The notes under the pieces: model-generated
Database searches by the model: none
Seen by the model: only the letters and a program-made list of their open reading frames with translations
Told to the model about the DNA's origin: nothing
Shown: positions 44,475 through 64,000 of the stretch, piece by piece
How the letters are laid out: every line of letters begins with the position of its first letter
Numbering within the stretch: position 1 is the stretch's first letter
Program-made: the position numbers and the translations under genes
Assembly: GCA_020161845.1 (NCBI GenBank)
Contig: JAIUNK010000012.1
Location: 47,599-111,598 of the forward strand
Length of the DNA: 64,000 nt
From: Actinomycetota bacterium
GTDB taxonomy: Bacteria > Actinomycetota > Actinomycetes > Actinomycetales > Dermatophilaceae
Reading direction: 5' to 3'

Positions 44475-45118
44475 GCGTGGCCGCAGGCACCCGCCGTACG
44501 TCGCGGGCCGGCGCCCTGCTCGACGCTCCGGCGACCAAGCGGACCTTCGACGCGCTGGTCGCGGCGGTCGGGCTGGTGGCGACATCGCCGCTCCTGGCGG
44601 CCATCGCGGTGGCCGTGGCCGCGGAGGGCCCCGGCGGGGTGCTGTTCCGGCAGGAGCGGGTCGGCCTGGGCGGGCGGACCTTCCGGATCCACAAGTTCCG
44701 CACGATGGCCGCGGTGCACGACGGTTCGCTGATCTCGGCCACCGGCGACGCCCGGGTGACCCGGGTCGGACGGGTGTTGCGGGCCAGCAAACTGGACGAG
44801 CTGCCCCAGCTGGTGGACGTGCTGGTGGGGGACATGTCGTTGGTGGGGCCGCGGCCCGAGGTGCCCGTCTATGTGGCGCAATGGCCCGCCGACCTGCGCC
44901 CGGTCATCCTGTCGGTGCGCCCTGGCATCACCGACCCGGGCAGCATCGCGTTCCGGCACGAGGCCGACGAGCTGGCGATTGCGACGGACCCCGAGCGGCA
45001 CTATGTCACCTCGATCCTGCCGCGCAAGGCGGCGCTCTATGCGGCGTACGTGCGGGACCGCAGCTTCGTCGGCGACCTGCGGATCCTCGCCGACACGGTC
45101 CGCGCGGTGCTCGCGTGA
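44471..45118 (+). CDS. Polyprenol phosphate sugar phosphotransferase (PglC/WcaJ type)
   Basis: 215 residues, the small monotopic form with one N-terminal membrane segment (VAAVGLVATSPLLAAIAVAV). Conserved KFRTM, KLDELPQLVDVLVGDMSLVGPRPE and RPGITDPGSI motifs. It starts glycan assembly by moving a sugar phosphate onto undecaprenyl phosphate. Its position after an aminotransferase suggests an amino sugar as first residue. Confidence 0.93.
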   Translation: MSVAAGTRRTSRAGALLDAPATKRTFDALVAAVGLVATSPLLAAIAVAVAAEGPGGVLFRQERVGLGGRTFRIHKFRTMAAVHDGSLISATGDARVTRVGRVLRASKLDELPQLVDVLVGDMSLVGPRPEVPVYVAQWPADLRPVILSVRPGITDPGSIAFRHEADELAIATDPERHYVTSILPRKAALYAAYVRDRSFVGDLRILADTVRAVLA

Positions 45119-45134
45119 TCGGTGTGTTGCCGTC

Positions 45135-46604: not shown

Positions 46605-46652
46605 ACAATGAACGAGCGTCCAGATAAGGCGCGGACCGACATGGAGGCAGCG

Positions 46653-47918: not shown

Positions 47919-49126
47919 TCCACCCGGCTCGCGAGGTCCCGCTCGGTCTCCTCGGGCGGACTCGTCAGCTCCTGCTCCACGGCGGCGATGAGTTCGGCGG
48001 CCGTCAACGGCCTTGGTGTCACCTGCACGCCGGGCGTCGGAGTGGCCGGCTCGTCCGCCAGGCCAAGGTCGTGCATGCGACGGGCGGTGACGAGCACGCG
48101 TCCCTCGAGCGCGCCGACCAGGGCGTTGTAGCCCTCCACCGAGCGACGCAGGGACCCGCCCATCGTGGTCAGGTGCTTGCCCACGCTGCCCAGCCGCTCG
48201 TAGAGCTCTTCCCCCAGGCGCAACAGTTCTCGGGCGTTGCTGGCTACCGCATCCTGCCGCCAGGCGAAGGCCACACTGCGTAACACCGCAAGCAGGGTGG
48301 CCGGGCTGGCCAGCACGACTTTGCGGGCCTGAGCCGCGTCGTAGAGGCCCGGATCCGCGGACAGCGCCGCCGCGAGCATCGCATCGGTCGGCACAAAGCA
48401 GACCACCATCTCGGGCGTGGTGGTGAACGCCGACCAATAGCGCTTGGCGGCCAGCGCGTCGACGTGCCGGCGCAGCGACCGGGCGTGCTCGGTGAGCAAC
48501 TCCCGTCGCCGGTCCTCGGCGACCCCGTCGGCCTGCGCGGCGAGGAAGGCGGCCAACGGCGCCTTGGCGTCCACGACGAGCAACCGCTCACCGGGCAGGC
48601 GCACCACGACGTCCGGGCGCACCGCGGCCTCGTGCGGGGCGATGGCGCTGACCTGTTCCTCGAAGTCGCAGTGCGGCAGCATGCCCGCGTGTTCGCAGAC
48701 CCGGCGCAACTGCGCCTCGCCCCAGGCGCCGCGCACCGCCGAGGCGTTGAGCGCCCCGGTGAGTCCTGCTGTCTGGCGACGCAAGGCCCCCGTCTGGGCC
48801 GTCACCTCGGCCAGCCGCTCCGCCAGCTGGCCGAAGTGCTCCAATCGGTCCCGCTCCAGCACCCCCACCTGGCGTTCGACACGGGTCATCGCCTCGCGCA
48901 GCGGGCCGAGCGCGGCAGCCGTCGCCGAATCCTCCGCCCCGAGGGCGCGCAGGTCGGCCAGGCTCTCGGCGTACTCCTGCTCCCGCTCCCGCAGCAGGTC
49001 GCGCTCCGTGCGCAGCGCCGCCACCCGTGCGGCGCATCGGCCGGCCGCGGTCAGCCACCCACCCGCGGCGCCCAGCAGGGCCGCGAACAGCAACGATGTG
49101 ACCAGGACCGTCGGGGAAACCGTCAT
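47897..49126 (-). CDS. rmuC: DNA recombination protein RmuC
   Basis: 409 residues: an N-terminal membrane segment, a coiled coil rich in Arg/Glu to about residue 120, then the RmuC nuclease-like core with GAWGEAQLRRVCEHAGML and the PD-(D/E)xK-type RPDVVVRLPGERLLVVDAKAP. It limits inversions at short repeats in E. coli. A -10 CACAGT lies six bases before the ATG. Confidence 0.92.
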   Translation of the reverse strand: MTVSPTVLVTSLLFAALLGAAGGWLTAAGRCAARVAALRTERDLLREREQEYAESLADLRALGAEDSATAAALGPLREAMTRVERQVGVLERDRLEHFGQLAERLAEVTAQTGALRRQTAGLTGALNASAVRGAWGEAQLRRVCEHAGMLPHCDFEEQVSAIAPHEAAVRPDVVVRLPGERLLVVDAKAPLAAFLAAQADGVAEDRRRELLTEHARSLRRHVDALAAKRYWSAFTTTPEMVVCFVPTDAMLAAALSADPGLYDAAQARKVVLASPATLLAVLRSVAFAWRQDAVASNARELLRLGEELYERLGSVGKHLTTMGGSLRRSVEGYNALVGALEGRVLVTARRMHDLGLADEPATPTPGVQVTPRPLTAAELIAAVEQELTSPPEETERDLASRVDQAIRSR

Positions 49127-49213
49127 GGGCCCACTGTGGCAGGGACCTCCGACAACGCTCGGGAGGCACCGGGAGGCCTCGGGAGGGCGCGGTGGCCGGT
49201 CCCGACGCGCCGG

Positions 49214-49219
49214 TAGACT
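49214..49219 (+). promoter_or_regulatory. -10 element of ychF
   Basis: TAGACT, eight bases before the GTG start, so the mRNA is leaderless or nearly so. Confidence 0.5.
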
Positions 49220-49227
49220 GCCCCCTC

Positions 49228-50307
<1,080 letters not shown>

Positions 50308-50398
50308 AGCCGCTGTTCGGGGCGGTTCGGCGTGTTTTGCCCACTGCGTCGGGAGTTCCGTCTCGACGTGTGGTCGCTGACTTGGCGAGCGTCGGCCG

Positions 50399-50427
50399 TT
50401 GAAGGTGGTCGCCCAACGGGGTAAGGT
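50399..50427 (+). promoter_or_regulatory. Promoter of the Abi-family gene
   Basis: TTGAAG (50399-50404), 17-base spacer, TAAGGT (50422-50427). It argues against the upstream TTG start, which would lie in the -35. Confidence 0.6.
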
Positions 50428-50497
50428 TGGATCCACTAAGACCGGTTCCGCCTACTTCGGTAGGTCCAGGGCCGGTCCTCATCTTTTCTGGGGTTTG

Positions 50498-51424
50498 GTG
50501 CGTGTGGGCGGGCAGCTGAAGGCCTACAGGACGTACGCGGAGCAGGTGGCGCTTCTTGGCGAGCGTGGGATGCTCATCGACGACGAGGCTTCTGCCGCTG
50601 CTGTCTTGGCACGGGTGAACTACTACCGGCTCAGCGGCTACTGGTACCCCTTCCGCGTGCTGCGTGACGGGGGGCGCGCTGACGCGTTCTATCCCGGCAC
50701 CAGGTTCGACGACGTTGTCGCTCTCTATGAGTTCGACGCACGGCTGCGAGCCGCGACGTTTGAGGCCCTGATGCCTATCGAGCTCGCGGTCCGAACACTT
50801 CTTGGGCACGAACTCGGGAGAGTCGATCCACAGGCGCACCTGGACCCGAGTCTCTTGGGCGCGGTGGCGCGGAAGGGGTGGGATCACGCGAAGTGGATGA
50901 AGCGCTACAAGGCGGTGCTCGAACGTTCACGTGAGGACTTCGTCGCACACCATCAGCAGAAGTACGGCGGGCAGATGCCCGTGTGGGTGGCCGTGGAATT
51001 GCTCGACTGGGGAAGCCTCAGCCGGCTGTATGACTTCTCTCCGCGCCCTGTGCAGGAGGCGGTCGCCGGTGCGTGCTCGCTCCGGGCGCCGCAGCTCGGC
51101 AGCTGGCTAAAGGTGCTCAACGTCGCGCGCAATACCTGTGCGCACCACGGACGCTACTTCAACCGAGTGCACGCCCTCACGCCGAAGCTACCGCGGGCAG
51201 GTGTGCATCGAGATCTCGATGCTGTTGATGCCGACTGGACTCGCACCTTCGGGCAGCTGACCTTGATCCAATTCCTCCTCGATCGCCTCGGCGTAGGCTC
51301 GGCTGAGCTGCTCCCCGAAGTTGTCGCGACCTTCCCCGAGATTCGTCTTCTCCCCCTCTCGCACATGGGGGTGCCCGTCGGTTGGCGGGACAGCAGCCCG
51401 ATCTGGCGCGGTCGGTGTGTGTGA
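50498..51424 (+). CDS. Abi-like (AbiD/F, Abi_2) HEPN protein
   Basis: 308 residues of the Abi_2 family, linked to abortive infection by phage. N-terminal YRTYAEQVALLGERGMLIDD and VNYYRLSGYWYPFR, then the HEPN RNase motif R211-N-T-C-A-H216-H in NVARNTCAHHGRYFNR. GTG 50498 is favoured by GGGG four bases before and by the promoter position; GTG 50504 is possible. Codon use is visibly less GC-biased than the flanks, suggesting transfer. No phage-defence partner is adjacent except HigBA. Confidence 0.85.
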   Translation: MRVGGQLKAYRTYAEQVALLGERGMLIDDEASAAAVLARVNYYRLSGYWYPFRVLRDGGRADAFYPGTRFDDVVALYEFDARLRAATFEALMPIELAVRTLLGHELGRVDPQAHLDPSLLGAVARKGWDHAKWMKRYKAVLERSREDFVAHHQQKYGGQMPVWVAVELLDWGSLSRLYDFSPRPVQEAVAGACSLRAPQLGSWLKVLNVARNTCAHHGRYFNRVHALTPKLPRAGVHRDLDAVDADWTRTFGQLTLIQFLLDRLGVGSAELLPEVVATFPEIRLLPLSHMGVPVGWRDSSPIWRGRCV

Positions 51425-51486
51425 TGCACGTGCCCGTGTTGTTGGTGCGGGTGCCGCGACGATGGCGACGTCGTCGGGCCCAGGGG

Positions 51487-51519
51487 TAACGCCTAGCGTT
51501 ATTGACGCGCCGCGTTATC
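51487..51519. promoter_or_regulatory. HigBA operator candidate
   Basis: TAACGC-CTA-GCGTTA (51487-51501) is a perfect inverted repeat; the half GCGTTAT recurs 16 bases on at 51512. It lies 20 to 50 bases before higB, overlapping a TTGACG that could be a -35. Confidence 0.5.
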
Positions 51520-51536
51520 TCTGACATCCTTGACTC

Positions 51537-51818
51537 GTGATCAGGTCCTTCGCTGACCGCGACACGGAACGGGTGTGGTTGCGTGAGGCGGTCCCGCGAC
51601 TTGACCAGCGGATCCACCGGGCTGCCAACCGCAAGTTGCACATGCTCGACGCCGCGCGCACGTTGGCCGCACTCAAGGTGCCTCCGGGGAATCGGCTGGA
51701 GGCGTTGAAGGGCGACCGAAAAGGTCGTCACAGCATCCGGGTCAACGACCAGTGCAGGATCACCTTTCATTGGACAGATGGTGGTCCGGAAGACGTGCTC
51801 ATTGAGGACTACCACTGA
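51537..51818 (+). CDS. higB: HigB-type (RelE superfamily) mRNA interferase toxin
   Basis: 93 residues. The fold is RelE/HigB: FADRDTERVWLREAV, LEALKGDRKGRHSIRVNDQCRITFHW, ending DVLIEDYH. The C-terminal Tyr-His with upstream Arg/Lys residues fits an mRNA-cleaving active site. Toxin before antitoxin is the HigBA order. It lies seven bases before higA. Confidence 0.92.
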   Translation: MIRSFADRDTERVWLREAVPRLDQRIHRAANRKLHMLDAARTLAALKVPPGNRLEALKGDRKGRHSIRVNDQCRITFHWTDGGPEDVLIEDYH

Positions 51819-51824
51819 GGAGGC

Positions 51825-52127
51825 ATGATGACTGACAAGCTCTATCCGCCGATCCATCCCGGCGAGATCCTCATGGAGGACTTCATCGAGGCCTTCGGCA
51901 TCACCCAGCACAGGCTGTCCGTCGCGATTGGCGTTCCGCCGCGTCGGATCAACGAGATCGTGCACGGCAAGCGCGGCATCACCGCCGACACGGCTCTGCG
52001 CCTCGGCAGATACTTCGGCATTGACCCGCAGTTCTGGCTCAATCTCCAGTCGCGCTATGAGATCGAGTTGACCCACGACCGGGCCGCTGACGAGATCGAT
52101 GCCATCAAGCCGCTAGAGGTAGCGTGA
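51825..52127 (+). CDS. higA: HigA-type antitoxin, XRE family
   Basis: 100 residues. HigA signature PPIHPGEILMEDFIEAFGITQ, HTH at LSVAIGVPPRRINEIVHGKRGI and the QFWLNLQSRYEIE segment. It binds HigB and represses the operon through an upstream palindrome. AGGAGG precedes the ATG. Confidence 0.94.
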   Translation: MMTDKLYPPIHPGEILMEDFIEAFGITQHRLSVAIGVPPRRINEIVHGKRGITADTALRLGRYFGIDPQFWLNLQSRYEIELTHDRAADEIDAIKPLEVA

Positions 52128-52209
52128 CTGGTCGGCTGGTGATGATTCCGGTCTTCAGGGCTCTTGTCCAGCGGTGATCTACGCGCTGGTCACCTCCTGA
52201 GGACGGCAC

Positions 52210-52215
52210 CACAAT
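52210..52215 (+). promoter_or_regulatory. Candidate -10 of the antiporter gene (leaderless)
   Basis: CACAAT six bases before GTG 52222; weaker than the other -10 elements. Confidence 0.35.
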
Positions 52216-52221
52216 GGCCCC

Positions 52222-54078
52222 GTGGAAACCGCCGCACTCCTCGTGGCCCTCACGGCCGTCGTCCTGGCCGGGGTAGCCCTGGCCGACCGGGTGCGGGCAC
52301 CGGCGCCGCTGCTGCTCATCGCGGTCGGGATCGCCGGGTCGTACCTGCCGGCGGTGCCCACGATCCACCTCGAACCGGAGGTGGTGCTGCTCGGCCTGCT
52401 GCCGCCGCTGCTCTACTCCGCGGCCATCCAGACCTCGCTCATCGACTTCGCCGCGCATCGGCGGCCGATCCTGCTGCTGTCGATCGGCCTGGTCGTGGCC
52501 ACCACGATCACCGTCGGTGCGGTGGTGCAGTGGCTGCTGCCCGGGTTGGGCTGGGCAGGGGCGCTCGCGATCGGCGCGGTGGTGGCCCCGCCCGACGCCG
52601 TCGCGGCCTCGGCCATCGCGCGCCGGATCGGCCTGGCCCGCCCGATCGTCACGGTGCTGGAGGGCGAATCGCTGCTCAACGACGCCACCGCGCTGGTGGC
52701 GTTGCGCTCGGCGATCGTCGGCATGGCCGCCGCCGTGTCCGCCCCCGCGATCGGGCTCGACTTCGTTCGGGCGGCCGGTGGCGGCGCGCTGAGCGGCTTC
52801 GTCGTCTTCCTGATCGTCGGTCGGCTGCGGCGCCGGATCACCGACCCGCTGCTGGACACCTCGGTCTCGTTCGTCACGCCGTACGCCGCGTACCTCCTGG
52901 CCGAGGGGACCGGGCTGCACGCCTCGGGCGTCATCGCCGTCGTCGTGGCCGGGCTCCTGCTCGGGCACAAGGCCCCGATCATCCAGACCGCCCAGTCCCG
53001 GATCACCGAGCGGACCACCTGGGGCACGATCGCCTTCCTGCTGGAGAACGCCGTCTTCCTGCTCATCGGGCTGCAAGCGAAGTGGATCTTCACCGACGTG
53101 GCGCGCTCACCGCTGTCCCCGGGCCGGATCGCGCTCGTCTGCGCCGCCACCCTGGCGGTCGTCATCCTCACCCGCCTGGCCTGGACGTTCACCGCGCGTT
53201 CCTCGCTGTTGCTCACCCGGGCCCGGTCCCAAGCGTTCCCGTGGAGCTACTCGTTCCTGATCGGCTGGGCCGGAATGCGCGGTGTGGTCACGTTGGCGGC
53301 CGCGTTCGTCATCCCCGCCGCAACCCCGCACCGGGAGGTCCTGCTGCTCATCGCCTTCACGGTCGTCGCAGGAACCCTGTTCCTGCAGGGTCTGACGCTG
53401 CCGGTGTTCCTGCGCCGCCTCGACGTACCGGCCCCCGATCCCGCCGCCGACGCCCTGGCCCGCGCCATGCTCCTGGAGGAGGCGAGCAGGGCCGGACTGG
53501 CCCGGCTCGCGGCGATGGAGGCGGACCCCCACGGCGTCGCCGACCTCATCCGCCGCCGGATCGAGGAGCGCAACTTCGCCGCCTGGGAGCGGCTCTCGAC
53601 GGCGGGCGACGAGGCGCCGTCGCGGCTCTACGCCCGCACCCGGCTCGCCATGCTCGAAGCCGAACGGGAGCGGGTGCTGCAGGTACGTCGTAGCGGGGCG
53701 GCGCCCTCCGAGGTGGTCGGCGAGGTCCTCACCATGCTGGATGTGGAGGAGTCGATCATCATGGGCAGCATGCTGACCCACGAGCAGGATGGCCCGGCGG
53801 GGGAGCACGTCGTCGGCGGTCAGGAATGCCCGGACCTGGCCGAGCACCCGGCCGAGCCGGCCGGCTCCACCGAACCCGTCTGCCGCGAATGCGTGGCCGC
53901 CGATGAGCCGTGGGTGGCGCTGCGTCGCTGCCTGACCTGCGGCAATGTCGGCTGCTGCGATTCCTCCGCGGAGCGGCACGCGACGGCGCACTTCCACGCG
54001 ACCGGCCACCCGGTGATGCAGTCGGCCCAGCCGGGGGAGGTCTGGCGCTGGTGCTACGTGCACCAACGCACCGGCTGA
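52222..54078 (+). CDS. CPA1 Na+/H+ antiporter with C-terminal UBP zinc finger
   Basis: 618 residues. Residues 1-415 are a CPA1 antiporter with about twelve helices; the ion site shows VVAPPDAVAASAIARR and LEGESLLNDATALV, and GMRGVVTLAAAF is conserved. A cytosolic helical region (about 420-520) follows. Residues 553-618 form a UBP-type zinc finger: C554, C557, C570, C573, C578, H586, H596, C611, H614. In eukaryotes this finger binds ubiquitin tails; in bacteria its role is unknown. It converges on the flavoprotein gene 17 bases downstream. Confidence 0.93.
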   Translation: METAALLVALTAVVLAGVALADRVRAPAPLLLIAVGIAGSYLPAVPTIHLEPEVVLLGLLPPLLYSAAIQTSLIDFAAHRRPILLLSIGLVVATTITVGAVVQWLLPGLGWAGALAIGAVVAPPDAVAASAIARRIGLARPIVTVLEGESLLNDATALVALRSAIVGMAAAVSAPAIGLDFVRAAGGGALSGFVVFLIVGRLRRRITDPLLDTSVSFVTPYAAYLLAEGTGLHASGVIAVVVAGLLLGHKAPIIQTAQSRITERTTWGTIAFLLENAVFLLIGLQAKWIFTDVARSPLSPGRIALVCAATLAVVILTRLAWTFTARSSLLLTRARSQAFPWSYSFLIGWAGMRGVVTLAAAFVIPAATPHREVLLLIAFTVVAGTLFLQGLTLPVFLRRLDVPAPDPAADALARAMLLEEASRAGLARLAAMEADPHGVADLIRRRIEERNFAAWERLSTAGDEAPSRLYARTRLAMLEAERERVLQVRRSGAAPSEVVGEVLTMLDVEESIIMGSMLTHEQDGPAGEHVVGGQECPDLAEHPAEPAGSTEPVCRECVAADEPWVALRRCLTCGNVGCCDSSAERHATAHFHATGHPVMQSAQPGEVWRWCYVHQRTG

Positions 54079-54095
54079 GCCCCGTCCGCCGCGAC

Positions 54096-55787
54096 CTAGC
54101 GTGCGGACCCGTGTTCGCGCAGGAGGTCCAGGTGCGCGTGCACCAAGGGGATGACCGAGGCGCCCTCGCCGCTGGCCGACGCCACCCGTTTCATCGACCC
54201 GGCCCTGACGTCGCCGGCGGCGAACACCCCGGCCAGGCTGGTCTCCAGGCTGGCCGGCGGACGCCCGTCGACCCACCGCTCGATCGGTACGTCGCGACCC
54301 GTCAGCACGAACCCCTCGGGGTCGCGCGCCACGCTCTCCGGCAGCCAGTCGCAGGCCGGGTCGGCCCCGAGCAGGAGGAACAGCCCGTCGGCCGGCACGA
54401 CCCTGCCGACCGTCGATCCCGCGTCCGCCAGCTCCAGCCATTCCAGGCGGGGGTCCCCGCCGCCGCCCACCACCTCTGTGGCGGCCAGCACCCGGATGGC
54501 CGGGGTCGCCTCGATCTCCCGGATGAGGTAGGCGGACATCGTCGCGGTCAGGGACTCCCGACGCACGACGATCGTCACCGAGGCGGCGAACCGGGCGAGG
54601 TGCACCGCCGCCTGACCCGCGGAGTTGCCGCCGCCGACCACGAACACGTGGCGGCCCGTGCTCTCCCGGGCGACCGCGGTGGCGGCCCCGTAGTAGACGC
54701 CGTTGCCCACCAGCTCCTCGATCCCGGGCACGGCCAGGCGCCGGTAGGCGACGCCGGTGGCCAGGACCACGGTCCGCCCGCAGATGCGCACGTCCCCGAC
54801 GAGCACGTGGTGATGGGGCGACTCCTGCGGCGGCGCCGGGGCCAGCCCGTCGACGGGCCGACCGGTGTAGAACCGCGCGCCGAACCGGGCCGCCTGCACC
54901 CGCGCCCGTTGGGTGAGCCGCATCCCCGAGATGCCGCGCGGGAACCCCAGGTAGTTGCGGATCATCGAGCTGGAGCCGGCCTGCCCGCCGATCGCGCCGG
55001 ACTCGACGACGACGGTCGACAGGCCCTCGGAGGCGGCGTACACGGCGGCGGCCAGCCCGGCGGGGCCGGCCCCGACGATGAGCACGTCCGCCACCTGACC
55101 GGCCGGGATCTCGTCGTATCCGCCGTACATCGCCTCCGCCGCCGCGGCCGCCGTCGCCGCAGGGAGGATCGCGCCGGTGAACGTGCGCAGGATCGGTAGC
55201 CGGGCCCCAGGGCCGGCGGCATCGATGATCTCCTGACCCTCCGGGGAGCCGGCGGGGTGGAAGGAGGCCGGCATGCCCACCCGGTCCATCCAGTCGCGCA
55301 GGCCGGCCTCGACCGGGGTGTACCGGTCGTAGACGACCGCCGCGCTGGACACGACGGGGCCGCCGACCGACCAGCCCCACTCCGAGAGCAGTTCGATCAC
55401 GGCCGTGTGGAACTCCTCGTCCCGCGGGCCGCGGGGGATGTCCAGGAAGGTGTCGAAGTCGCTTTCCAGCGAGCGGCGGCGCAGCTCGTCGCGGCGGGCG
55501 GCGTATTCCGCGCCGGGGGCCACCAGGGCGACGCGGCGCGCCGTCGGGCAGTCGGCGTGCAGCCGGCGGAGCAGGTCCATGCCGCAGCCGTCCCCCAGCA
55601 CCAGCTCCGCGGCGATCATGGCCAGGGGCCGGGCCGCCGTGCGCAGGGCGAGGACTCGCTCGCGGGCCTGTTCGCCGGTGGTGGCGATCACGATCTCGTA
55701 GTCCCGGTCGTACCGGGATCGGAACTCCGCCTCCACGCTCCCGCGGGATTTCTCGGTCACCAGCAGGAGGGCGGGGCGTTCGCTCAT
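54096..55787 (-). CDS. Pseudo-receiver fused to thioredoxin-reductase-like flavoprotein
   Basis: 563 residues. Residues 1-140 have a response-regulator receiver pattern, but the phosphate-accepting Asp is E61 and the acidic pocket is T11-E12, so it cannot be phosphorylated normally. From about 233 the fold is thioredoxin reductase: FAD site GAGPAG (239-244), NADPH site GGGNSAG (385-391) and ATG motif [10 protein letters not shown]. The redox CxxC that should lie near 367 is absent (YYGAAT). It therefore needs another electron acceptor. TACCCT lies six bases before the ATG (leaderless). Convergent with the antiporter. Confidence 0.88.
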
Positions 55788-55793
55788 GGCCGA

Positions 55794-55799
55794 AGGGTA
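55794..55799 (-). promoter_or_regulatory. -10 element of the flavoprotein gene (leaderless)
   Basis: TACCCT on the minus strand, six bases before the ATG at 55787. Confidence 0.5.
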
Positions 55800-55963
55800 G
55801 ACGGGTTATTCGGGGGCCGCTCCAACGGCCGCGGCGGTCCGGCGCACGGTGCGAAACTGTCCTTTCGGTCGGTTCCTGCGTGCCGGACGTGACGTCGGGC
55901 CGGGCAGGGAGCAGACTGCGGGCAGCGCGTCGCCGCGGCCGGGGCCGGATCGGTCCGGGAACT

Positions 55964-55993
55964 GTTGGGGGACAAGGCGGTACGACGTACGCT
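55964..55993 (+). promoter_or_regulatory. Promoter of the FG-GAP gene
   Basis: TTGGGG (55964-55969), 18-base spacer, TACGCT (55988-55993); about 25 bases of leader with GGGAGG as ribosome site. Confidence 0.4.
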
Positions 55994-56024
55994 GGCAGAC
56001 CTCGTCGCATCCCCGGGAGGACCC

Positions 56025-57461
56025 GTGAACAAGCCCGCCGCGAAGCCCCTGCGCCTGCTCGCCGCGACAGCGGTCACCGCGCTCGCGGCGTACGGGGTGG
56101 TGCTGCCCCCCGCCACAGCCGTCGATGCCCCGCCGACCCCGCGGCCCCGCGCGACCGCCCAGCCGGCGCCGCCCCCCGCGAGCGGGACAACGGGTCGGGC
56201 CACCCCCGCGTGGGGCCTGAACCCGGCGCCCGGGCAGGACTGCCCCGCGGGATCGACGCGTACCACCACTCTCGCCAGCAGCACCTTCGACGGGGGCACG
56301 GGCGCGCCGTTCACCGTGACCGGCGCCTTCACGAGCGAGGGCGGGGCGCAGTTCGTCCGGCAGGCCGGCGGTGGCGCCCCGGTCGCCGATCTCATCGCCT
56401 CGCCGGACCTCGCGCCGACGGGCCCCTGGCGGGTCTACGTGAAGATGGACGTGCGCGGTGACTTCGCGGCCCAGGACCTGGTGGTGACCCCGCGGTACGG
56501 CGGGACCGCCTGGGCCGTCGCCTCGGCCGCGCAGGCCCAGGTCTCCGCGAGTACCTGGCGGACCGTGCATCTCGATCTCACGGACGGCGCCAATGAGCGC
56601 ACCCTCGGCGACCCGTTCAACGTGGTGATCGCGCGCGACGCCGGCACCGGGACCGTCGACATCGACAACCTCTCGGTGTACGCCTGCACGCCGCCGCTCA
56701 TGGGCGAGCCGGGCGACTTCAACGGCGACGGGTTCGCCGATGCGAAGTTCATCATGCGCAACGGCGATCTGCTGATGTCCGGCGGCACCCCGACCCGGTC
56801 GGCCACGTTGTGGAAGGCCGGCAACGGCTGGCAGTCGATGACCTGGATCGGTTCGGTGGGCGACACCAACGGCGACGGTTACACCGACCTGATGGCGCGG
56901 ACCGCCGGTGGGGACATGCTCGTCTACTTCGGCGACGGGGTGCGCAGCTTCGGCCGCTCGCAACGGGTCGGCTGGGGGTGGCAGGGGATGACCGCGATCC
57001 TGCCGGTCGGCGACGTGGACGGGGACGGCATGCAGGATGTCATCGCCCGTGACCCGGCCGGCAACATGCGGTTTTACACCTACCGCTCGGACGGCACGAT
57101 GACCGGCGGCCGCGTGGTCGGCACGGTCTGGAACGTCTTCCGGCACATCGTGGCGATCCGCAGTACGGCGGTGCCGGGCACCCCCACCCGCCTCTACGGC
57201 ATCCTGGCCAATGGGGACATGCTCTCCTACACCGTGACCAAGACCGGCGACATGTATGGCACCGGCACCAAGGTCGGCAACGGCTGGTTCTTCCCCCGGG
57301 TGGGCAGCGTCGGCGACTTCGACGGTGACGGTCTGGACGACGTCCTGGCGGTGACCGCGACCGGATCGGCATACATCTACCCCACCAACGGCCCCGGCGC
57401 CTGGAAGGGGATCAAGACGTTGCAGGAGACCATCTGGAACGCCGCGTTGGTCGTCGGCTGA
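56025..57461 (+). CDS. Secreted FG-GAP/VCBS repeat protein
   Basis: 478 residues. The GTG at 56025 follows GGGAGG and yields a Sec signal peptide (LRLLAATAVTALAAYGVVLPPATA). A Pro/Ala-rich linker follows, then a beta-sandwich of about 150 residues (binding-type, RVYVKMDVRGDF), then a beta-propeller with calcium loops GDFNGDGFADA, GDTNGDGYTDL, GDVDGDGMQDV and GDFDGDGLDDV. No catalytic motif is visible. Extracellular binding is likely; ligand unknown. It belongs to no operon. Confidence 0.85.
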   Translation: MNKPAAKPLRLLAATAVTALAAYGVVLPPATAVDAPPTPRPRATAQPAPPPASGTTGRATPAWGLNPAPGQDCPAGSTRTTTLASSTFDGGTGAPFTVTGAFTSEGGAQFVRQAGGGAPVADLIASPDLAPTGPWRVYVKMDVRGDFAAQDLVVTPRYGGTAWAVASAAQAQVSASTWRTVHLDLTDGANERTLGDPFNVVIARDAGTGTVDIDNLSVYACTPPLMGEPGDFNGDGFADAKFIMRNGDLLMSGGTPTRSATLWKAGNGWQSMTWIGSVGDTNGDGYTDLMARTAGGDMLVYFGDGVRSFGRSQRVGWGWQGMTAILPVGDVDGDGMQDVIARDPAGNMRFYTYRSDGTMTGGRVVGTVWNVFRHIVAIRSTAVPGTPTRLYGILANGDMLSYTVTKTGDMYGTGTKVGNGWFFPRVGSVGDFDGDGLDDVLAVTATGSAYIYPTNGPGAWKGIKTLQETIWNAALVVG

Positions 57462-57482
57462 CCGATCCTTGAGGCTGTCGGC

Positions 57483-57923
57483 ATGGCGAGTGCGCAGGTC
57501 CCCGGCTGGGACGAGTATTTCCTCGGCATCGCCACCGCCGTCGCCGCGCGGGCCAAGTGCACCCGGCGTCGGGTCGGGGCGGTGCTGGTCATCGAGCGAC
57601 GCATCATCGCCACCGGATACAACGGGGCGGCGCCGGGGGAGCCGGACTGCCTGGACGGTGCCTGTCCGCGGGGCCGGCTCGGGTACGACGTGGTCGCCGA
57701 GCTGGGTGACTATGACCGGCCCGGCACCGACGGCTTCTGCATCGCGATCCACGCCGAGGTGAACGCCCTGCTCTTCGCGACCCGGGACACCAAGGGCGCC
57801 ACGGCGTACATCACCGATCCACCCTGTCCCGGCTGCCGCAAGGCGTTGGCGGCCGCGGGGATCGTCCGCGCGGTCTGGCCGGGCGGGGAGCACGACCGGG
57901 CCGGTCTGACCCGGTGGACCTGA
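57483..57923 (+). CDS. dCMP deaminase-like zinc deaminase
   Basis: 146 residues of the cytidine/deoxycytidylate deaminase family. Zinc site H90-A-E92 and PC115-PGC118. The insert DCLDGACPRGR is typical of the dCMP/ComEB branch. It would supply dUMP for thymidylate synthesis; a substrate other than dCMP cannot be excluded. It is 22 bases after the FG-GAP gene. Confidence 0.85.
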   Translation: MASAQVPGWDEYFLGIATAVAARAKCTRRRVGAVLVIERRIIATGYNGAAPGEPDCLDGACPRGRLGYDVVAELGDYDRPGTDGFCIAIHAEVNALLFATRDTKGATAYITDPPCPGCRKALAAAGIVRAVWPGGEHDRAGLTRWT

Positions 57924-58021
57924 CCGACTTCGCGCGCCCGGCTTGGCGCGCTGACCTGGGATTTCAGGTGAACCTCCCGGTAGGGGACCTTCGGCACGCC
58001 CCGCGGCGCAAACGGCGCGCC

Positions 58022-58027
58022 TAGAGT
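58022..58027 (+). promoter_or_regulatory. -10 of the Nfn-rubrerythrin gene
   Basis: TAGAGT with no clear -35; gives a leader of about 85 bases that holds two inverted repeats. Confidence 0.4.
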
Positions 58028-58032
58028 GTGGC

Positions 58033-58053
58033 CCAACACACAGACAGTGTTGG
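58033..58053. promoter_or_regulatory. Inverted repeat 1 in the Nfn leader
   Basis: CCAACAC (58033-58039), seven bases, GTGTTGG (58047-58053), directly after the transcription start. It may be a repressor site or an mRNA hairpin. Confidence 0.5.
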
Positions 58054-58065
58054 TCGTGCTCGCGA

Positions 58066-58082
58066 GGGAACGGACCGTTCCC
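58066..58082. promoter_or_regulatory. Inverted repeat 2 in the Nfn leader
   Basis: GGGAACGG-A-CCGTTCCC, a perfect 17-bp odd palindrome, 36 bases before the start codon. Confidence 0.5.
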
Positions 58083-58117
58083 GGGGCAGAGCTGAGGGAC
58101 GAAAGAGGTCCAGATCC

Positions 58118-61100
58118 GTGTACACGATCGTCGATCGCCAGCAATTCTCGGACACCACCTTCCTGTGGGACGTCGACGCGCCCGACGTGGCCGCGTCGGC
58201 TCAGCCGGGGCACTTCGTGATGCTGCGGCTGCACGAGGGTTCGGAACGCATCCCGCTCACGGTCGCCGACTACGACCGGGACAAGGGCACGATCACCCTG
58301 GTCATCCAGGCGCTGGGCAAGACCACCCAGGAGATGCGCGACCGCTACAAGCCCGGCGACCACTTCGCCGACTTCGTCGGTCCGCTCGGGCTGCCGCAGC
58401 ACGTCGAGAAGGTCGGGCACGTCGTCCTGGTCGGTGGCGGCCTCGGGGTGGCCCCCGTCTATCCGCAGCTGCGGGCCTTCAAGGAGGCCGGCAACCGCAC
58501 CACGGGCATCATCGGCTTCCGCAACCAGGACCTGGTGTTCTGGGAGGACCGCTTCAAGGAGTACTGCGACGACCTGATCGTCTGCACCGACGACGGCAGC
58601 TACGGCCGCCCCGGCTTCGTGACCGACGCGCTCGCCGACGTCATCGAGCGCGAGAAGCCCGACCTGGTCGTCGCGATCGGTCCGATGCCGATGATGCGCG
58701 CCTGCGTCGAGACGACCCGGCCGTCCGGGACGCGGACGATGGTCTCGCTGAACTCGATCATGGTCGACGGCACGGGGATGTGCGGATCGTGCCGCGTCAC
58801 CGTGGATGGCAAGGTCAGGTTCGCCTGCGTCGACGGCCCCGACTTCGACGGCCACCAGGTGGACTTCGGCGAGCTGATGACCCGACAGGCCCGCTTCAAG
58901 GGTCTGGAGGCCGAGGCGAACGAGTCCTACGGTCACATCTGCAACCTGGAGCAGGAACTCTTCGTCGAGGGCAAGCGGGGCTATCGCACGGCCATGCAGG
59001 TGGTCCCCCACCAGACGGAGATGCCGGAGGCCGACGCCAAGATCCGCGCCACGAACTTCCAGGAGGTCAACCTCGGCTACGGCATGGCGGAGGCCTTCGC
59101 CGAAGCGGAGCGGTGCATCCAGTGCAAGAAGCCCAAGTGCATCGCCGGCTGCCCGGTGAGCATCGACATCCCCCGGTTCATCCGGCACGTGCTGGTGCGC
59201 GACCTCGACGGGGCGCTGGGCGTCATCAACGAGTCCAACCTGTTCCCCTCGATCTGCGGCCGCGTCTGCCCGCAGGAGAACCAGTGCGAGAGCCAGTGCA
59301 TCGTGCGCAACGAGAAGCGCGGCCGCGAGGCCGTGGGGATCGGCCGGCTGGAGCGCTTCGTCGGTGACAACGCGGTCCCGCGCCGCAACACCCCGCCGCA
59401 GGTCACCCGCACCCTGGGCAAGGTCGGCATCATCGGTTCCGGCCCGTCGGGCCTGGCGGCCGCGGCGGACCTGGCCAAGGCCGGCTGCGAGGTGACGGTC
59501 TTCGAGGCGCTGCACGTCGTGGGCGGCGTGCTGCAATACGGCATCCCGAGCTTCCGCCTGCCGCGCAACATCATCGACCGCGAGGTCTCCGGCCTGCGCG
59601 ACCTCGGCGTGCAGTTCGACACCAACAAGGTCGTCGGCAAGACGTTCACGATCGACCAGCTGATGAAGGATCGGGGCTTCGACTCGGTCTACATCGCGAC
59701 CGGCGCCGGCGCGCCGAGCTTCCTCGGCATCCCGGGCGAGCACGCCGGGCAGGTGCTCTCGGCGAACGAGTTCCTCACCCGCATCAACCTGATGGGCGGC
59801 AACAAGTTCCCCTACTTGGACACCCCCGTGGCCAAGTCGCAGTCGGTCATCGTCATCGGCGCCGGCAACACCGCGATGGACTGCCTGCGGGTGGCCAAGC
59901 GCGTCGGCGTCCCGAAGGTCACCTGCGTCTACCGCCGTTCCGAGGCGGAGGCCCCGGCCCGCATCGAGGAACTGCGGCACGCCAAGGAAGAGGGCATCGA
60001 GTTCCGCTTCCTGCACGCCCCCGTGGAGATCCGGCTGGACGAGGCCGGCAATGTCACCGCGATGAAGACCGAGGTCTGCGAGCTCGGCGAGCCGGACGAG
60101 CGGGGCCGGCGCAAGCCCGTCGGCACCGGCGTCTTCGAGGACATCGCGTGCGACACGGTCATCTACGCGCTCGGCACCAATGCCAACCCGATCATCGGGC
60201 AATCGGCGCCCGACCTGTCCCTGAACAAGTGGGGCTACATCGTGGCCGAGCCCGAGACCCAGGCCACCAACCTGCCCGGCGTCTTCGCCGGCGGCGACAT
60301 CGTCACCGGCGGCGCGACCGTCATCCTGGCGATGGGCGCCGGTCGGCGGGCCGCCAAGGCGATCGGTGCCTATCTCGCCTCGGGCGACGGCAACGACGCC
60401 CGGACCTGGCCGATCACCGCCGAGATGGCCGACGAGTTCGTCTCCCCCGTCCTGGTTGGGTCGGTCGACTCCGCGCCCGCACCAGCCGGCGAATCGCTGT
60501 CCGAGGTATCCGCGGCCACGCTCGGCGCCGAGGTGCCCGCACCGCAGGACGAGGCCCCCTCTCCTGCTGCCACCGCCCCCGGCGACGCGCCGGCACCCAC
60601 CCCGGTCGAGGAGGCCGCCATGGAGTCCCACCTGCTGTGCCCGAAGTGCCAACAGCCCCTTGACGGCGACGAGTCCTACATCTGCTGCGCTGGGCAGACT
60701 CTGACGTGGCGCTGCGACAGCTGCGGCAAGGTCTCCGAGGGCTTCGCGTTCCCCTACGGACAGTGCCCGATGTGCCAGGGCACGCTGGTCCGCGACGCGG
60801 GCGCCGGCCCGATCGACGAGGACAACGAGAAGGCCATGGAGGCCATCCGGACCGCCTTCGAAATCGAGCTCGGCGGCGGCGCCTACTACCGCAAGGCCGC
60901 GGAGGAGGCGAACGAGCCGGTCCTGAAGGACCTGTTCAGCCGGATGTCCGAGATGGAGGACGAGCACCTGGAGACGCTGCAGCGGCGTTACCACGCCGAG
61001 GTGCCCGCGCCGTCGCCCGACTTCGAGACCACCCGGGCCGCGATCTACGCCGGGCTGGACCACCACCCGGAGGACCCGGCGAACCTGCTCCGCGTGGCCA

Positions 61101-61273
61101 TCGGCTTCGAGAAGAGGGCCGTCGACTTCTTCAGCAAGCACATGGAGGAGTGCCCCGAGGGTTCCGTCGAGCGCGAGCTCTACGAGGAGCTGGCGGCCGA
61201 AGAGCGGGAGCACGTGGCCCTGCTGACCACCGAATTGGAACGGTTCCAGTCGGGCAAGGCCGGGATCCTCTAG
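58118..61273 (+). CDS. Nfn-type ferredoxin:NAD(P) oxidoreductase fused to rubredoxin-like and rubrerythrin domains
   Basis: 1051 residues. Residues 1-285 match NfnA/SudB (FAD/NAD fold; [2Fe-2S] ligands C222, C225, C237 in GTGMCGSCRV and FACVDGPDF). About 300-780 match NfnB/SudA/GltD: two [4Fe-4S] sets (C333, C336, C341, C345; C380, C384, C390, C394), FAD site near 437, NAD(P) site near 577. A Pro/Ala/Glu linker (about 790-835) leads to a zinc ribbon (C841/C844, C866/C869, C883/C886) and a four-helix ferritin-like domain (about 897-1045) with two ExxH irons. GTG 58118 has GAAAGAGG upstream. Inferred role: flavin bifurcation or NAD(P)H-driven peroxide reduction. Confidence 0.92.
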   Translation: MYTIVDRQQFSDTTFLWDVDAPDVAASAQPGHFVMLRLHEGSERIPLTVADYDRDKGTITLVIQALGKTTQEMRDRYKPGDHFADFVGPLGLPQHVEKVGHVVLVGGGLGVAPVYPQLRAFKEAGNRTTGIIGFRNQDLVFWEDRFKEYCDDLIVCTDDGSYGRPGFVTDALADVIEREKPDLVVAIGPMPMMRACVETTRPSGTRTMVSLNSIMVDGTGMCGSCRVTVDGKVRFACVDGPDFDGHQVDFGELMTRQARFKGLEAEANESYGHICNLEQELFVEGKRGYRTAMQVVPHQTEMPEADAKIRATNFQEVNLGYGMAEAFAEAERCIQCKKPKCIAGCPVSIDIPRFIRHVLVRDLDGALGVINESNLFPSICGRVCPQENQCESQCIVRNEKRGREAVGIGRLERFVGDNAVPRRNTPPQVTRTLGKVGIIGSGPSGLAAAADLAKAGCEVTVFEALHVVGGVLQYGIPSFRLPRNIIDREVSGLRDLGVQFDTNKVVGKTFTIDQLMKDRGFDSVYIATGAGAPSFLGIPGEHAGQVLSANEFLTRINLMGGNKFPYLDTPVAKSQSVIVIGAGNTAMDCLRVAKRVGVPKVTCVYRRSEAEAPARIEELRHAKEEGIEFRFLHAPVEIRLDEAGNVTAMKTEVCELGEPDERGRRKPVGTGVFEDIACDTVIYALGTNANPIIGQSAPDLSLNKWGYIVAEPETQATNLPGVFAGGDIVTGGATVILAMGAGRRAAKAIGAYLASGDGNDARTWPITAEMADEFVSPVLVGSVDSAPAPAGESLSEVSAATLGAEVPAPQDEAPSPAATAPGDAPAPTPVEEAAMESHLLCPKCQQPLDGDESYICCAGQTLTWRCDSCGKVSEGFAFPYGQCPMCQGTLVRDAGAGPIDEDNEKAMEAIRTAFEIELGGGAYYRKAAEEANEPVLKDLFSRMSEMEDEHLETLQRRYHAEVPAPSPDFETTRAAIYAGLDHHPEDPANLLRVAIGFEKRAVDFFSKHMEECPEGSVERELYEELAAEEREHVALLTTELERFQSGKAGIL

Positions 61274-61340
61274 GCCCACCAGCGCAACCTGGCGCGCGAG
61301 CGACCCTGGGCCGGCGCCCCCCGGTCGCTCGCCCGCCCGC

Positions 61341-61372
61341 GGTGCCCCCACCCCCCTCCGGGTGGGGGCACC
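61341..61372 (+). terminator. Terminator of the Nfn fusion gene
   Basis: GGTGCCCCCAC (61341-61351) pairs with GTGGGGGCACC (61362-61372) around a 10-base loop, 68 bases after the stop. Convergent with the amidotransferase gene, so it may serve both. Confidence 0.7.
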
Positions 61373-61447
61373 GGTGCGTTCCGGGGCGACGTACCGGCGT
61401 CGGGCTTCCGGTCCAGCACGACGGGCGCGGACGGCCCGCGAGGCGGA

Positions 61448-62251
61448 TCAGCGGTGGTGGATGCGGCCGACCGACGGGGTGTTGGGCGGCGGGGGCAGCG
61501 GGACGACGCTGCGACCGCCCGGGCCCAGGCCGGGCCGCCGCGTGGCGGCGAAGAAGAGCTTCGCCACGGGCCGCCAGATCCGCTCCAACTCGTCCTGGCG
61601 AGTCTCCAGCAGCGCGACGATGTCATCGTTGCCAGGGCCCCCAGCGGCGGCAGGTGGAGCGGGATCGCGACCCCAGCCCGCCACGATGGCGGCGTCCACC
61701 TCGGGGTGCCCCTGGATCCCCCAGGCGTGCTCGGCGAACCGCAGGATCTGCACCTGCCCCTGGGCGTCCCGGGCCAGCACGGTCGCCCCACCGGGCACGG
61801 TCGTGACCACGTCGCTGTTCCAGTGCACGACGGCGGCGTTCGCCGGCAGCGCCGCCATGATCGGGTCGTGACCGGCCAGCGCGAGTGGCCGGACCGGAAA
61901 AATCCCCCGAGAGGGTCCCTCGGGGTTGGCGCCGACCCGGCCGCCCAGGGCGACGGCGGCGAGCTGGTGCCCCAGGCACAGCCCGAGGAACGGGATGCTC
62001 TGGATCACCGACTGGATGACCAGAGACTTCGCGGCGGACAGCCACGGATGCCGAGCGTCGTCGTAGGCGCCCATCTCCCCACCGAGAAGAATCAGGCCAC
62101 TGTGCTCGCTCAGGGAGGGCGGCAGCGGGGCGCCGCGGTGGCAGGCCCGGACGTCCAGGACGACGTTGCACTGGTGGGCCCACGGCAGCAGATGTCCCGG
62201 CGGACACCCGCCCTCGTGTTGGACCACGAGGATGGGTCGGGCGCGGGGCAT
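61448..62251 (-). CDS. Class I glutamine amidotransferase (GuaA-like domain protein)
   Basis: 267 residues. Catalytic triad visible: C92 in FLGLCLGHQLAA, and H182 and E184 in GIQGHPEVD. It belongs to the stand-alone GATase1/YfeJ-like group, whose amino acceptor is often unknown. The C-terminal Pro/Arg-rich tail is extra. TAGGGT lies six bases before the ATG (leaderless). Confidence 0.88.
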   Translation of the reverse strand: MPRARPILVVQHEGGCPPGHLLPWAHQCNVVLDVRACHRGAPLPPSLSEHSGLILLGGEMGAYDDARHPWLSAAKSLVIQSVIQSIPFLGLCLGHQLAAVALGGRVGANPEGPSRGIFPVRPLALAGHDPIMAALPANAAVVHWNSDVVTTVPGGATVLARDAQGQVQILRFAEHAWGIQGHPEVDAAIVAGWGRDPAPPAAAGGPGNDDIVALLETRQDELERIWRPVAKLFFAATRRPGLGPGGRSVVPLPPPPNTPSVGRIHHR

Positions 62252-62319
62252 ACAGGCACCCTAAGGACGCCACCGGGGCGAGGGGGCCGAGCGTGGTTCG
62301 CGCCGGACCGGCCAAGATT

Positions 62320-62336
62320 CAATGTCGTCGACATTG
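62320..62336. promoter_or_regulatory. Odd palindrome CAATGTCG-T-CGACATTG
   Basis: Perfect 17-bp dyad, about 70 bases upstream of the amidotransferase start; AT-rich for this genome and so likely a protein site. Confidence 0.45.
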
Positions 62337-62557
62337 TTAACGGCGTTGCGCCGTCCTGCCGCGACAGGCCACGTCAGAGCGGCGATAGGGGCGCGTCCGG
62401 GGCCGGCCGGGAGGGTGCGGCGGGGGCCTAACGGCGGTCGTTGCGCAAGCCCGGGGGATGCCTGCGAGGCCCGCCTGCGCGAGTTGCACCGACCGTCCAG
62501 TCTTTGCCCCGCAAAAACCTTGCGAACTGTGCCCAAGGGTCGATAGGGACTGCGGAA

Positions 62558-62595
62558 CGTGGCGGGCGGCGGAGGAGGGGCCGCCGCCCGCCACG
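62558..62595. terminator. 15-bp hairpin downstream of oppF
   Basis: CGTGGCGGGCGGCGG (62558-62572) and its perfect complement (62581-62595), 8-base loop. It lies 81 bases beyond the oppF stop. Confidence 0.6.
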
Positions 62596-62626
62596 GACCA
62601 TCGCCCGCCACTGGGCGGTGGCACAC

Positions 62627-62660
62627 GGGCCCAGGTCGCTGCGCGACGGTGGGCCCTTTT
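62627..62660. terminator. Hairpin just beyond the oppF stop
   Basis: GGGCCCA (62627-62633) and TGGGCCC (62650-62656), with an inner stem. TTTT follows on the plus strand only, yet the position fits termination of the minus-strand opp operon. Confidence 0.45.
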
Positions 62661-62675
62661 CGCGTCGGGGCGCGT

Positions 62676-63851
62676 TCAGCCGATCTCGCCGACCGACGCT
62701 GGGCCCAGCAGGAGGTCGCCACCGGGATCGTCCACGACCAGCGTCGGATCGGTCGACACGGCCGCGACCCCGTGCGGGCGCAGCGCCCCAGCCGCGATCT
62801 GTTCGGCGTAATGGCAGGCCACTCGGTGCCCTGGTGCCACTGCCTCGATCGAAAGCGCGCGCAGCTCCGGTCGTTCGGTGTGGCAGCGCTCCGGCTGCCG
62901 CCATGGGCAGCGCGTATGGAACCGGCACCCGGTCGGCGGGTTCGCCGGGCTGGGCAGGTCGCCGGTGAGCAGGATGCGCTCGCGGCGGTCCTCCACCAGC
63001 GGGTCGGGCACCGGCACGGCCGACATCAGCGCGCGGGTGTACGGGTGCAGGGGCGCCGCGTAGAGGTCGTCGGCGTCGGCCTCCTCCACGAGCGCGCCGA
63101 GGTACATGACGCCGACCGTGTCGCTGATGTGGCGCACCACGGCCAGGTCGTGGGCCACCACCAGATAGGTGAGCCCGAACTCCTGCTGCAGATCCTCCAG
63201 CAGGTTGATGACCTGCGCTTGCACCGACACGTCCAGGGCACTGACCGGTTCGTCGGCGACGACCAGTTTGGGGTCGACGGCCAACGCCCGGGCGATGCCG
63301 ATGCGCTGCCGTTGCCCACCGGAAAACTCGTGCGGGTACTTCTTCAGCGCCGCCGGCGGTAGACCCACCGCGCCCAGCAACTCCCGCAAGCGCTTGCCCG
63401 CCGACGCCGCGTCCTTGCCGAGGCCGTGGGCGCGCATGCCCTCCACGAGCAGCGATTCGACGCTTTGCCGCGGATCGAGGCTGGACAGGGGGTCCTGGAA
63501 GACCATTTGCATGTCTTTGCGCCGGCTGCGCAACGCCTCGCCCTTCAAGGACGCCACGTCCACCCCGTCGAAAAACACCTGCCCGTCGGTCAGCGGCTCC
63601 AGCCGAAGCAGCGCCCGCCCGAAGGTGGATTTGCCGCACCCCGACTCGCCCACCAGGCCATAGGTCTCGCCGCGGTGGATCGTCATGTCCATTCCGTCCA
63701 CGGCGTACACATAGCCCACCGTCCGATCGAGGATCACCCCCCGCTTGATCGGGAAGTGCACCTTGAGGCCGCGGACGTCGACGAGAACGTCGCCCCCGCC
63801 AGGAGGGTCGCCGGCGGCGGGGGCAGCCGGGGCCGGTACGGCGGTGCTCAC
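62676..63851 (-). CDS. oppF: Oligopeptide/dipeptide ABC transporter ATPase, OppF type
   Basis: 391 residues. Walker [10 protein letters not shown], the Q-loop [13 protein letters not shown] typical of OppF/DppF, signature [15 protein letters not shown], Walker [16 protein letters not shown], switch AHDLAVV. The C-terminal oligopeptide domain has a four-Cys cluster type ([16 protein letters not shown]). I take GTG 63851 (MSTAVPAP...); a GTG at 63911 would add 20 residues. Energises peptide import with the partner ATPase upstream. Confidence 0.92.
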
Positions 63852-63915
63852 TGGTCCACCATTCTCGTGTCGGCGTTCTCCGATGGAGCGCTGATGCACC
63901 CCGGGTGCCACCAGG

Positions 63916-64000
63916 TCACTGCCCTGCTCGCTTGACGCCGAGGACGTCCAGCATGAGATCTGCAGGATCTGGTGGTGGCCCGGGACGTGTGGACCGTCGA
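63916..64000 (-). CDS. C-terminus of an upstream gene, probably the OppD-type ATPase
   Basis: Only the last 28 codons are in the window (ending [16 protein letters not shown], stop at 63916-63918). The frame has the GC-rich third positions of a real gene. Its product cannot be proven from this piece; position before oppF makes the partner ATPase OppD/DppD the best guess. Confidence 0.5.

Follow-up and report, generated by a model that had tools for sequence, protein, structure and literature searches.

An Nfn-type flavoprotein fused to a rubrerythrin-like di-iron domain: a candidate NAD(P)H-fed peroxide or oxygen reductase

What does an Nfn-type flavoprotein do with a rubrerythrin-like di-iron domain on its C-terminus? 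The question is raised by one gene, at 58118-61273 on the forward strand of a 64,000-nucleotide stretch of the actinobacterial contig JAIUNK010000012.1 that was analysed as a whole (hereafter the window). Translation of the window gives an intact open reading frame of 1051 codons that starts with GTG and has no internal stop. This bears out an initial annotation, made from the letters alone, which had placed NfnA, NfnB, a cysteine domain and a di-iron domain in a single unbroken frame. On balance we favour the reading that the product is an Nfn-type bifurcating transhydrogenase carrying its own rubrerythrin-like domain, which, judging from the sequence, would be fed by NAD(P)H and reduce peroxide or oxygen.

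The flavin modules are recognisably those of Nfn. Pfam matches run from DHODB_Fe-S_bind (residues 212-249) through Fer4_20 (310-420) and Pyr_redox_2 (435-741) to Rubrerythrin (908-960), and the solved chains that come nearest belong to the Nfn enzymes of Thermotoga (4ylf, E 2.9e-138) and of Pyrococcus (5jca, 5vj7). We aligned 48 full-length fused proteins, namely the window protein and 47 relatives, from 53 fused rows (52 loci and the window; L056, L058, L062, L117 and L135 were left out). The [2Fe-2S] ligands Asp217, Cys222, Cys225 and Cys237 are invariant (48/48), as are the two [4Fe-4S] sets (Cys333/336/341/345/380/384/390/394). The ERxPxT motif at the NfnA flavin and the [4Fe-4S] motif RCx2Cx4Cx3CPV (residues 332-347) occur in every row, and the Nfn motif DGTGMCGxCRx10CV is exact in 46/48, with its four ligands present in all 48. 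For GRVCPQExQCx3Cx13Gx2ER the published x13 spacing is found in 0/48 and a spacing within x10-16 in 48/48; the motif exceeds the published length in all 48, with the ligands all present. Moreover, Arg480 is invariant and aligns with Arg187 of Thermotoga NfnB, which we take to be the residue at N5 of the bifurcating FAD. The window protein thus has its cofactor ligands, ERxPxT, the Asp-ligated [2Fe-2S] cluster and the position of the bifurcating-FAD Arg in common with NfnAB of Thermotoga maritima (4ylf/4yry) and NfnI of Pyrococcus furiosus (5jca). However, those enzymes consist of two subunits, come from anaerobes and have no di-iron part.

The C-terminal module, in turn, resembles the rubrerythrins. 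Of 44 modules aligned and scanned, all match Pfam Rubrerythrin and seven match the rubrerythrin rubredoxin model PF21349; weak matches were to Ferritin_2 (41/44), EncFtn-like (11/44), Ferritin (9/44) and COQ7 (6/44). Among solved chains the module profile finds Pyrococcus 2fzf (E 7.6e-10). The rubrerythrin 1b71/1ryt, presumably from Desulfovibrio, is matched as well (E 0.007-0.008), its rubredoxin part lying against the WxCxxC...CPxC segment of the module. The first reading of this region was a zinc ribbon with three Cys pairs. Three CxxC pairs are indeed there, together with an adjacent CC, making an eight-Cys set (Cys841/844/856/857/866/869/883/886) that is invariant in 48/48. It is the second half of this region that aligns with the solved rubrerythrin, and the whole is probably more like a rubrerythrin-type rubredoxin site joined to a second cysteine cluster than a zinc ribbon. 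The ferritin-like pattern Glu, ExxH, Glu, ExxH is also present in all 48 proteins, with the di-iron ligands Glu917, Glu947xxHis950, Glu998 and Glu1029xxHis1032 invariant, so the ferritin-like domain does not lack its metal ligands. Its helices are present in the predicted structure of the module, which is of fair quality (predicted local distance difference test, pLDDT, 81.5; predicted template modelling score, pTM, 0.79). Best Foldseek matches of this model are mostly ferritin-like and include many ferritins and Dps, with none at E <=1e-3. Classical and reverse rubrerythrins and COG1633-type proteins (2fzf, 2oh3) share the rubredoxin-like site and the ExxH helices, and in reverse rubrerythrins that site lies N-terminal to the bundle, as it does here. 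Unlike classical rubrerythrin, the module has a further CxxC...CC site, lacks the extra Glu (Ala1001) and is part of an Nfn.

Table 1. Modules of the gene in window coordinates, with the residues they span
Feature	Position	Strand	Details
Whole gene, NfnA-NfnB-linker-Cys domain-di-iron domain	58118..61273	+	1051 aa, stop included; NF009413 match covers residues 1-1051
NfnA module, residues 1-290	58118..58987	+	FAD/NAD domain, ERIPLT 43-48, Asp/3Cys [2Fe-2S] motif 217-238; from Pfam, solved-structure comparison and motifs
NfnB module, residues ~296-760	59003..60397	+	two [4Fe-4S] motifs, FAD and NADPH Rossmann folds, Arg480 aligned to Arg187 of Thermotoga NfnB
Pro/Ala-rich linker, residues ~761-834	60398..60619	+	pLDDT <50 at residues 782-838 in the full-chain model
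Cys-rich domain, residues 841-886	60638..60775	+	CPKC, CC, then rubredoxin-like WRCDSC...CPMC
Di-iron four-helix bundle, residues 899-1051	60812..61270	+	ligands E917, E947, H950, E998, E1029, H1032

Physical coupling of the module to Nfn extends well beyond the window. We classed 93 loci and set aside one (L077), which has no nfnB because its contig starts at the module gene. NfnB and the module share one frame in 52 of the remaining 92, and in 40 the module is a gene of its own after nfnAB (L124, with an assembly N near the end of nfnB, was counted here). This split form is found in Betaproteobacteria and some Alphaproteobacteria. In 32/40 split loci the start codon of the module and the nfnAB stop share bases as ATGA, an overlap counted only where the TGA is that stop; the start lies 10-18 bases past the stop in L065, L067, L085, L131 and L139, and 103-112 bases past it in L069 and L093. 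The overlap suggests that the module behaves as an Nfn subunit, and its being an overlapping partner gene of nfnAB as well as a fused domain argues that the parts work together. The stand-alone protein begins shortly before the cysteine motif, which makes the linker the probable point of fusion; the stretch that spans it (residues 754-840) has 87 residues in the window protein and 15-106 across the 48 aligned proteins. On the module tree three changes between fused and split forms are required, L124 included.

Carriers of the module come from several phyla. When 396 genomes from the phylum of the window were searched with the C-terminal module, 19 matched. The matches were strong in the genome of the window itself and in G145 (E 4.5e-51); the other 17 fell between E 7e-12 and 9e-4, and the best of these were to stand-alone frames of short length. 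Of 100 relatives of G145, 13, from two genera, have the module at E <=1e-10, and of the matches listed for 58 relatives of the window's genome, the window's own is the only one to cover the whole protein. A scan of named genomes turned up 341 pattern stretches and from these 227 relatives, of which the best 80 were analysed; as relatives were gathered by the module itself, nfnAB kin of the branch that lack it could be missed. The nearest relatives are a Propionibacterium bin (81% over the whole protein) and Propioniciclava tarda (80%), followed by Burkholderiales, Rhodospirillales, Anaeromyxobacter, Myxococcales, Rubrivivax, Telmatospirillum and others. By record titles, the module-bearing Nfn branch spans Actinomycetota, Myxococcota, Pseudomonadota, Acidobacteriota and Binatota. 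The three rows from Propionibacteriaceae cluster in a 94-module tree (Shimodaira-Hasegawa-like approximate likelihood ratio test, SH-aLRT, 100), where the other actinobacterial family, f45, forms a separate clade. Judging from its nearest relatives, the window probably comes from Propionibacteriaceae; within that family the gene is probably sporadic, and of the genes called in window positions 45001-64000 it alone matches a called gene at the Propionibacterium and Propioniciclava loci. A quick NfnA tree of 118 sequences, built without the duplicate loci L038-L049 and without matches shorter than 200 residues, puts 81 module-bearing sequences on one side of a single branch and 37 without the module on the other (SH-aLRT 81). 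A single gain of the module fits this tree, which is unrooted and whose carriers were gathered by the module. A plasmid search with the C-terminal module gave no match.

The companions of the module also follow a pattern. A gene like pyruvate:ferredoxin oxidoreductase (PFOR; ~1200 residues) comes next in 26 of 33 split loci, and these 26 also hold a dihydroorotate-dehydrogenase-like gene (25) and a small ferredoxin (19). The 33 are the gene-called loci with >=3.8 kb downstream, L077 included; L087 and L112 had enough flank and sat outside the gene-called set (locus <9 kb or uncalled). Family matches include PFOR TIGR02176 (1720 bits) and PRK07565 (462 bits) in L086, and YfhL ferredoxin (112 bits) in L100. 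Other neighbours stand in 7/33 (L065, L067, L085, L104, L106, L124 and L139): in L065 and L067, both from Rhodospirillales, an FAD protein that seems to us to resemble FixC directly follows the module gene, not PFOR, and in L104 and L106 the place is taken by what are presumably relatives of cytochrome c maturation genes. At genome level, PFOR was found in 52 of 55 carriers tested (E <=1e-100; 51 above the curated cut-off), leaving G454 (75% complete), G544 and G572 without it. It is present twice in the window's own genome and occurs in 15 of the 58 relatives of the window, itself included.

Carriers also tend to possess a haem-copper oxidase. The COX1 family (PF00115) was found in 42/42 carrier genomes (42 of the 80 named-genome loci were queried) and in 13 of 14 further carriers, one being the genome of the window and the rest members of family f45; G451, 92% complete, gave no match. 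This second set comprised 17 genomes, the 14 carriers and three without a module match. Overall, 55/56 module-bearing genomes have COX1; among plain-Nfn genomes from the same phylum as the window, 9 of 80 do. The comparison is no more than suggestive, since the carrier and plain-Nfn lineages differ and PF00115 also includes nitric oxide reductases. The plain-Nfn set was the first 80, in list order, of 139 genomes (141 with NfnA at E 1e-45, minus two carriers). The presence of the oxidase in most carriers tested fits a defence against oxygen or peroxide, and the co-occurrence suggests that the added part may let Nfn chemistry run where oxygen is present.

Several observations on these genomes and on the gene itself stand apart from this argument. 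In the Rubrivivax loci L092 (14972-17299) and L122 (11693-14021) a second NfnA/NfnB pair, 55-57% identical, lies ~5 kb from the module gene, with no second module in either locus. A second PFOR-flavoprotein pairing is found in the window's genome (G000:C63:78554-83688), where a GltD-like flavoprotein match (38-42% to NfnB) sits beside one PFOR gene. In all, this pairing occurs in 12 of the 15 PFOR-bearing genomes among the 58 relatives (G000, G001, G002, G003, G008, G017, G022, G023, G024, G034, G045 and G057), with GltD-like frames of 564-624 codons, and 886 in G057. The same genome has a separate rubrerythrin-type match in a 325-codon frame (G000:C68:97718-97885), and the window encodes, at 54096-55787 on the reverse strand, a 563-aa protein that we take to be thioredoxin-reductase-like with an apparent receiver domain in front. 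For the gene itself, AGAGG sits 9 bases 5' of the GTG at 58118; an alternative in-frame GTG at 58028 would make the product 30 aa longer, and a promoter and terminator scan found nothing. Two separate products were considered and are countered by the lack of an internal stop and by the presence of all three parts in one frame in 47/93 loci. We also judged contamination or a chimaera unlikely, because Propionibacterium and Propioniciclava relatives are 80-81% identical and the guanine-plus-cytosine content of the gene (0.693) is near that of the window (0.705); the contamination estimate carried by the window's assembly is 4.4.

The three-part architecture is already catalogued in databases, contrary to the initial suggestion that it was undescribed. 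NCBIfam NF009413 (PRK12775) has the same full-length layout and aligns end to end with the window protein (residues 1-1051 on profile 1-1006, 1753.6 bits). The curated cut-off of 1895 is not reached by the window protein; it is passed by three of nine relatives scanned (L110 Anaeromyxobacter, L107 Myxococcales and L119 Telmatospirillum), with six falling short. The family is named 'putative trifunctional 2-polyprenylphenol hydroxylase/glutamate synthase subunit beta/ferritin domain-containing protein', which cites neither Nfn nor rubrerythrin. Literature searches, whose coverage excluded most subscription journals, returned no functional study of the protein. The words 'ferritin' and 'rubrerythrin' are both absent from an Nfn review (PMC6405883) and from a survey (PMC6085437), the published Nfn patterns A-D in excerpts of PMC6405883 name no di-iron module, and excerpts of a rubrerythrin survey (PMC5114695) contain no fusion to Nfn. 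PMC6085437 and PMC6405883 place Nfn almost only in anaerobes, the latter naming one aerobe. A close parallel is CperHydR, a chimera of [FeFe] hydrogenase and rubrerythrin which couples H2 oxidation to H2O2 reduction through its fused rubrerythrin (PMC11926857). Like the window protein, CperHydR is a low-potential redox enzyme fused to a rubredoxin and a di-iron domain; unlike it, CperHydR draws its electrons from H2 rather than from an NAD(P)H/ferredoxin flavin chain and has no bifurcating module. By analogy, this precedent shows that fusion of a rubrerythrin part to a redox enzyme can work, with H2 as donor.

How might the enzyme operate? From the architecture we infer bifurcation, the identity of the metals, the direction and route of the electrons, the substrate and the protective role as follows. 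Electrons from NADPH, NADH or reduced ferredoxin would enter the Nfn flavin and Fe-S chain and travel on through the rubredoxin-like Fe(Cys)4 site; the di-iron site would receive them last and reduce H2O2, perhaps O2, to water. The enzyme would serve bacteria that run PFOR and ferredoxin chemistry while exposed to oxygen, its reductase domain possibly shielding oxygen-sensitive Fe-S enzymes nearby. An NAD(P)H-to-peroxidase defence had been proposed from the start; the complete and invariant ligands, the overlapping nfnAB partner gene and the oxidase in most carriers speak for it, with the reduction of peroxide or O2 itself a prediction.

Other results weigh against this assignment. Where classical rubrerythrin has its extra Glu, which we take to be Glu97, three residues past the third-helix Glu, the aligned proteins have Ala1001 (48/48). 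This leaves a 4Glu/2His site, which may prefer O2 or serve as a ferroxidase. HypA chains also match the module profile (E 0.018-0.019), and for this reason the Cys sites could hold zinc. The full-chain model has a pTM of 0.50 and a disordered linker, with no confident docking of the module on the flavin domains, and therefore cannot place the di-iron site against any cluster. PFOR lies downstream in 0/31 fused loci with enough flank, and the window's own locus is fused. Finally, three members of G145's genus (g134) without a module match also have COX1, so the link to the oxidase fails inside that genus.

Four alternatives must be set against an Nfn with its own oxidant reductase. Improbable, yet the best placed of them, is a di-iron oxygenase that would hydroxylate a small substrate at the di-iron site and, like soluble di-iron monooxygenases, rely on an NAD(P)H reductase, here NfnA and NfnB. 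Oxygenases usually combine a 4Glu/2His site with an FAD and [2Fe-2S] reductase that supplies it, COQ7 weakly matches the six modules noted above, and 2-polyprenylphenol hydroxylase appears in the NCBI name, though it probably refers to the NfnA-like part. However, the module has a rubredoxin-like domain and its best matches are rubrerythrin-type proteins, no substrate-pathway gene was recognised among the conserved neighbours, and most split loci pair with PFOR, the dihydroorotate-dehydrogenase-like gene and ferredoxin.

Slightly less probable still is a role in iron storage, oxidation or release, as in ferritin or EncFtn-like proteins, with Nfn electrons reducing Fe(III) to feed Fe-S cluster assembly. 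Bacterioferritin has the same 4Glu/2His ligand set, and the weak Ferritin_2, EncFtn-like and Ferritin matches point the same way, as do the many ferritins and Dps among the Foldseek hits; yet none of those hits reaches E <=1e-3, the best sequence kin are of COG1633 and rubrerythrin type, and a cage seems unlikely for the terminal domain of a large enzyme. We give the same low standing to a sensor of oxygen or peroxide that would gate Nfn or a neighbouring PFOR without meaningful turnover. The highly variable linker stretch, modelled at low confidence, and the occurrence of the module as a separate gene would suit a sensor, but the di-iron ligand set is complete and an invariant rubredoxin-like electron site would seem superfluous in a pure sensor. 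Least likely of all, oxygen or peroxide might be the high-potential acceptor of bifurcation, each NADPH electron pair being divided between the di-iron site and ferredoxin, with the result that an oxygen-exposed cell would gain low-potential ferredoxin from oxidant reduction; the bifurcation elements are retained and PFOR, ferredoxin and dihydroorotate-dehydrogenase-like genes occur in many split operons, but so is the NAD-binding NfnA part retained, and the full-chain model gives no support for the module on the high-potential branch.

In summary, we favour an Nfn-type bifurcating transhydrogenase that carries its own rubrerythrin-like reductase for peroxide or oxygen. If this reading is true, the protein illustrates how a bifurcating enzyme sensitive to oxygen came to suit life in its presence. 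Moreover, it would allow bifurcation and the removal of oxidants to be measured side by side in a single protein.

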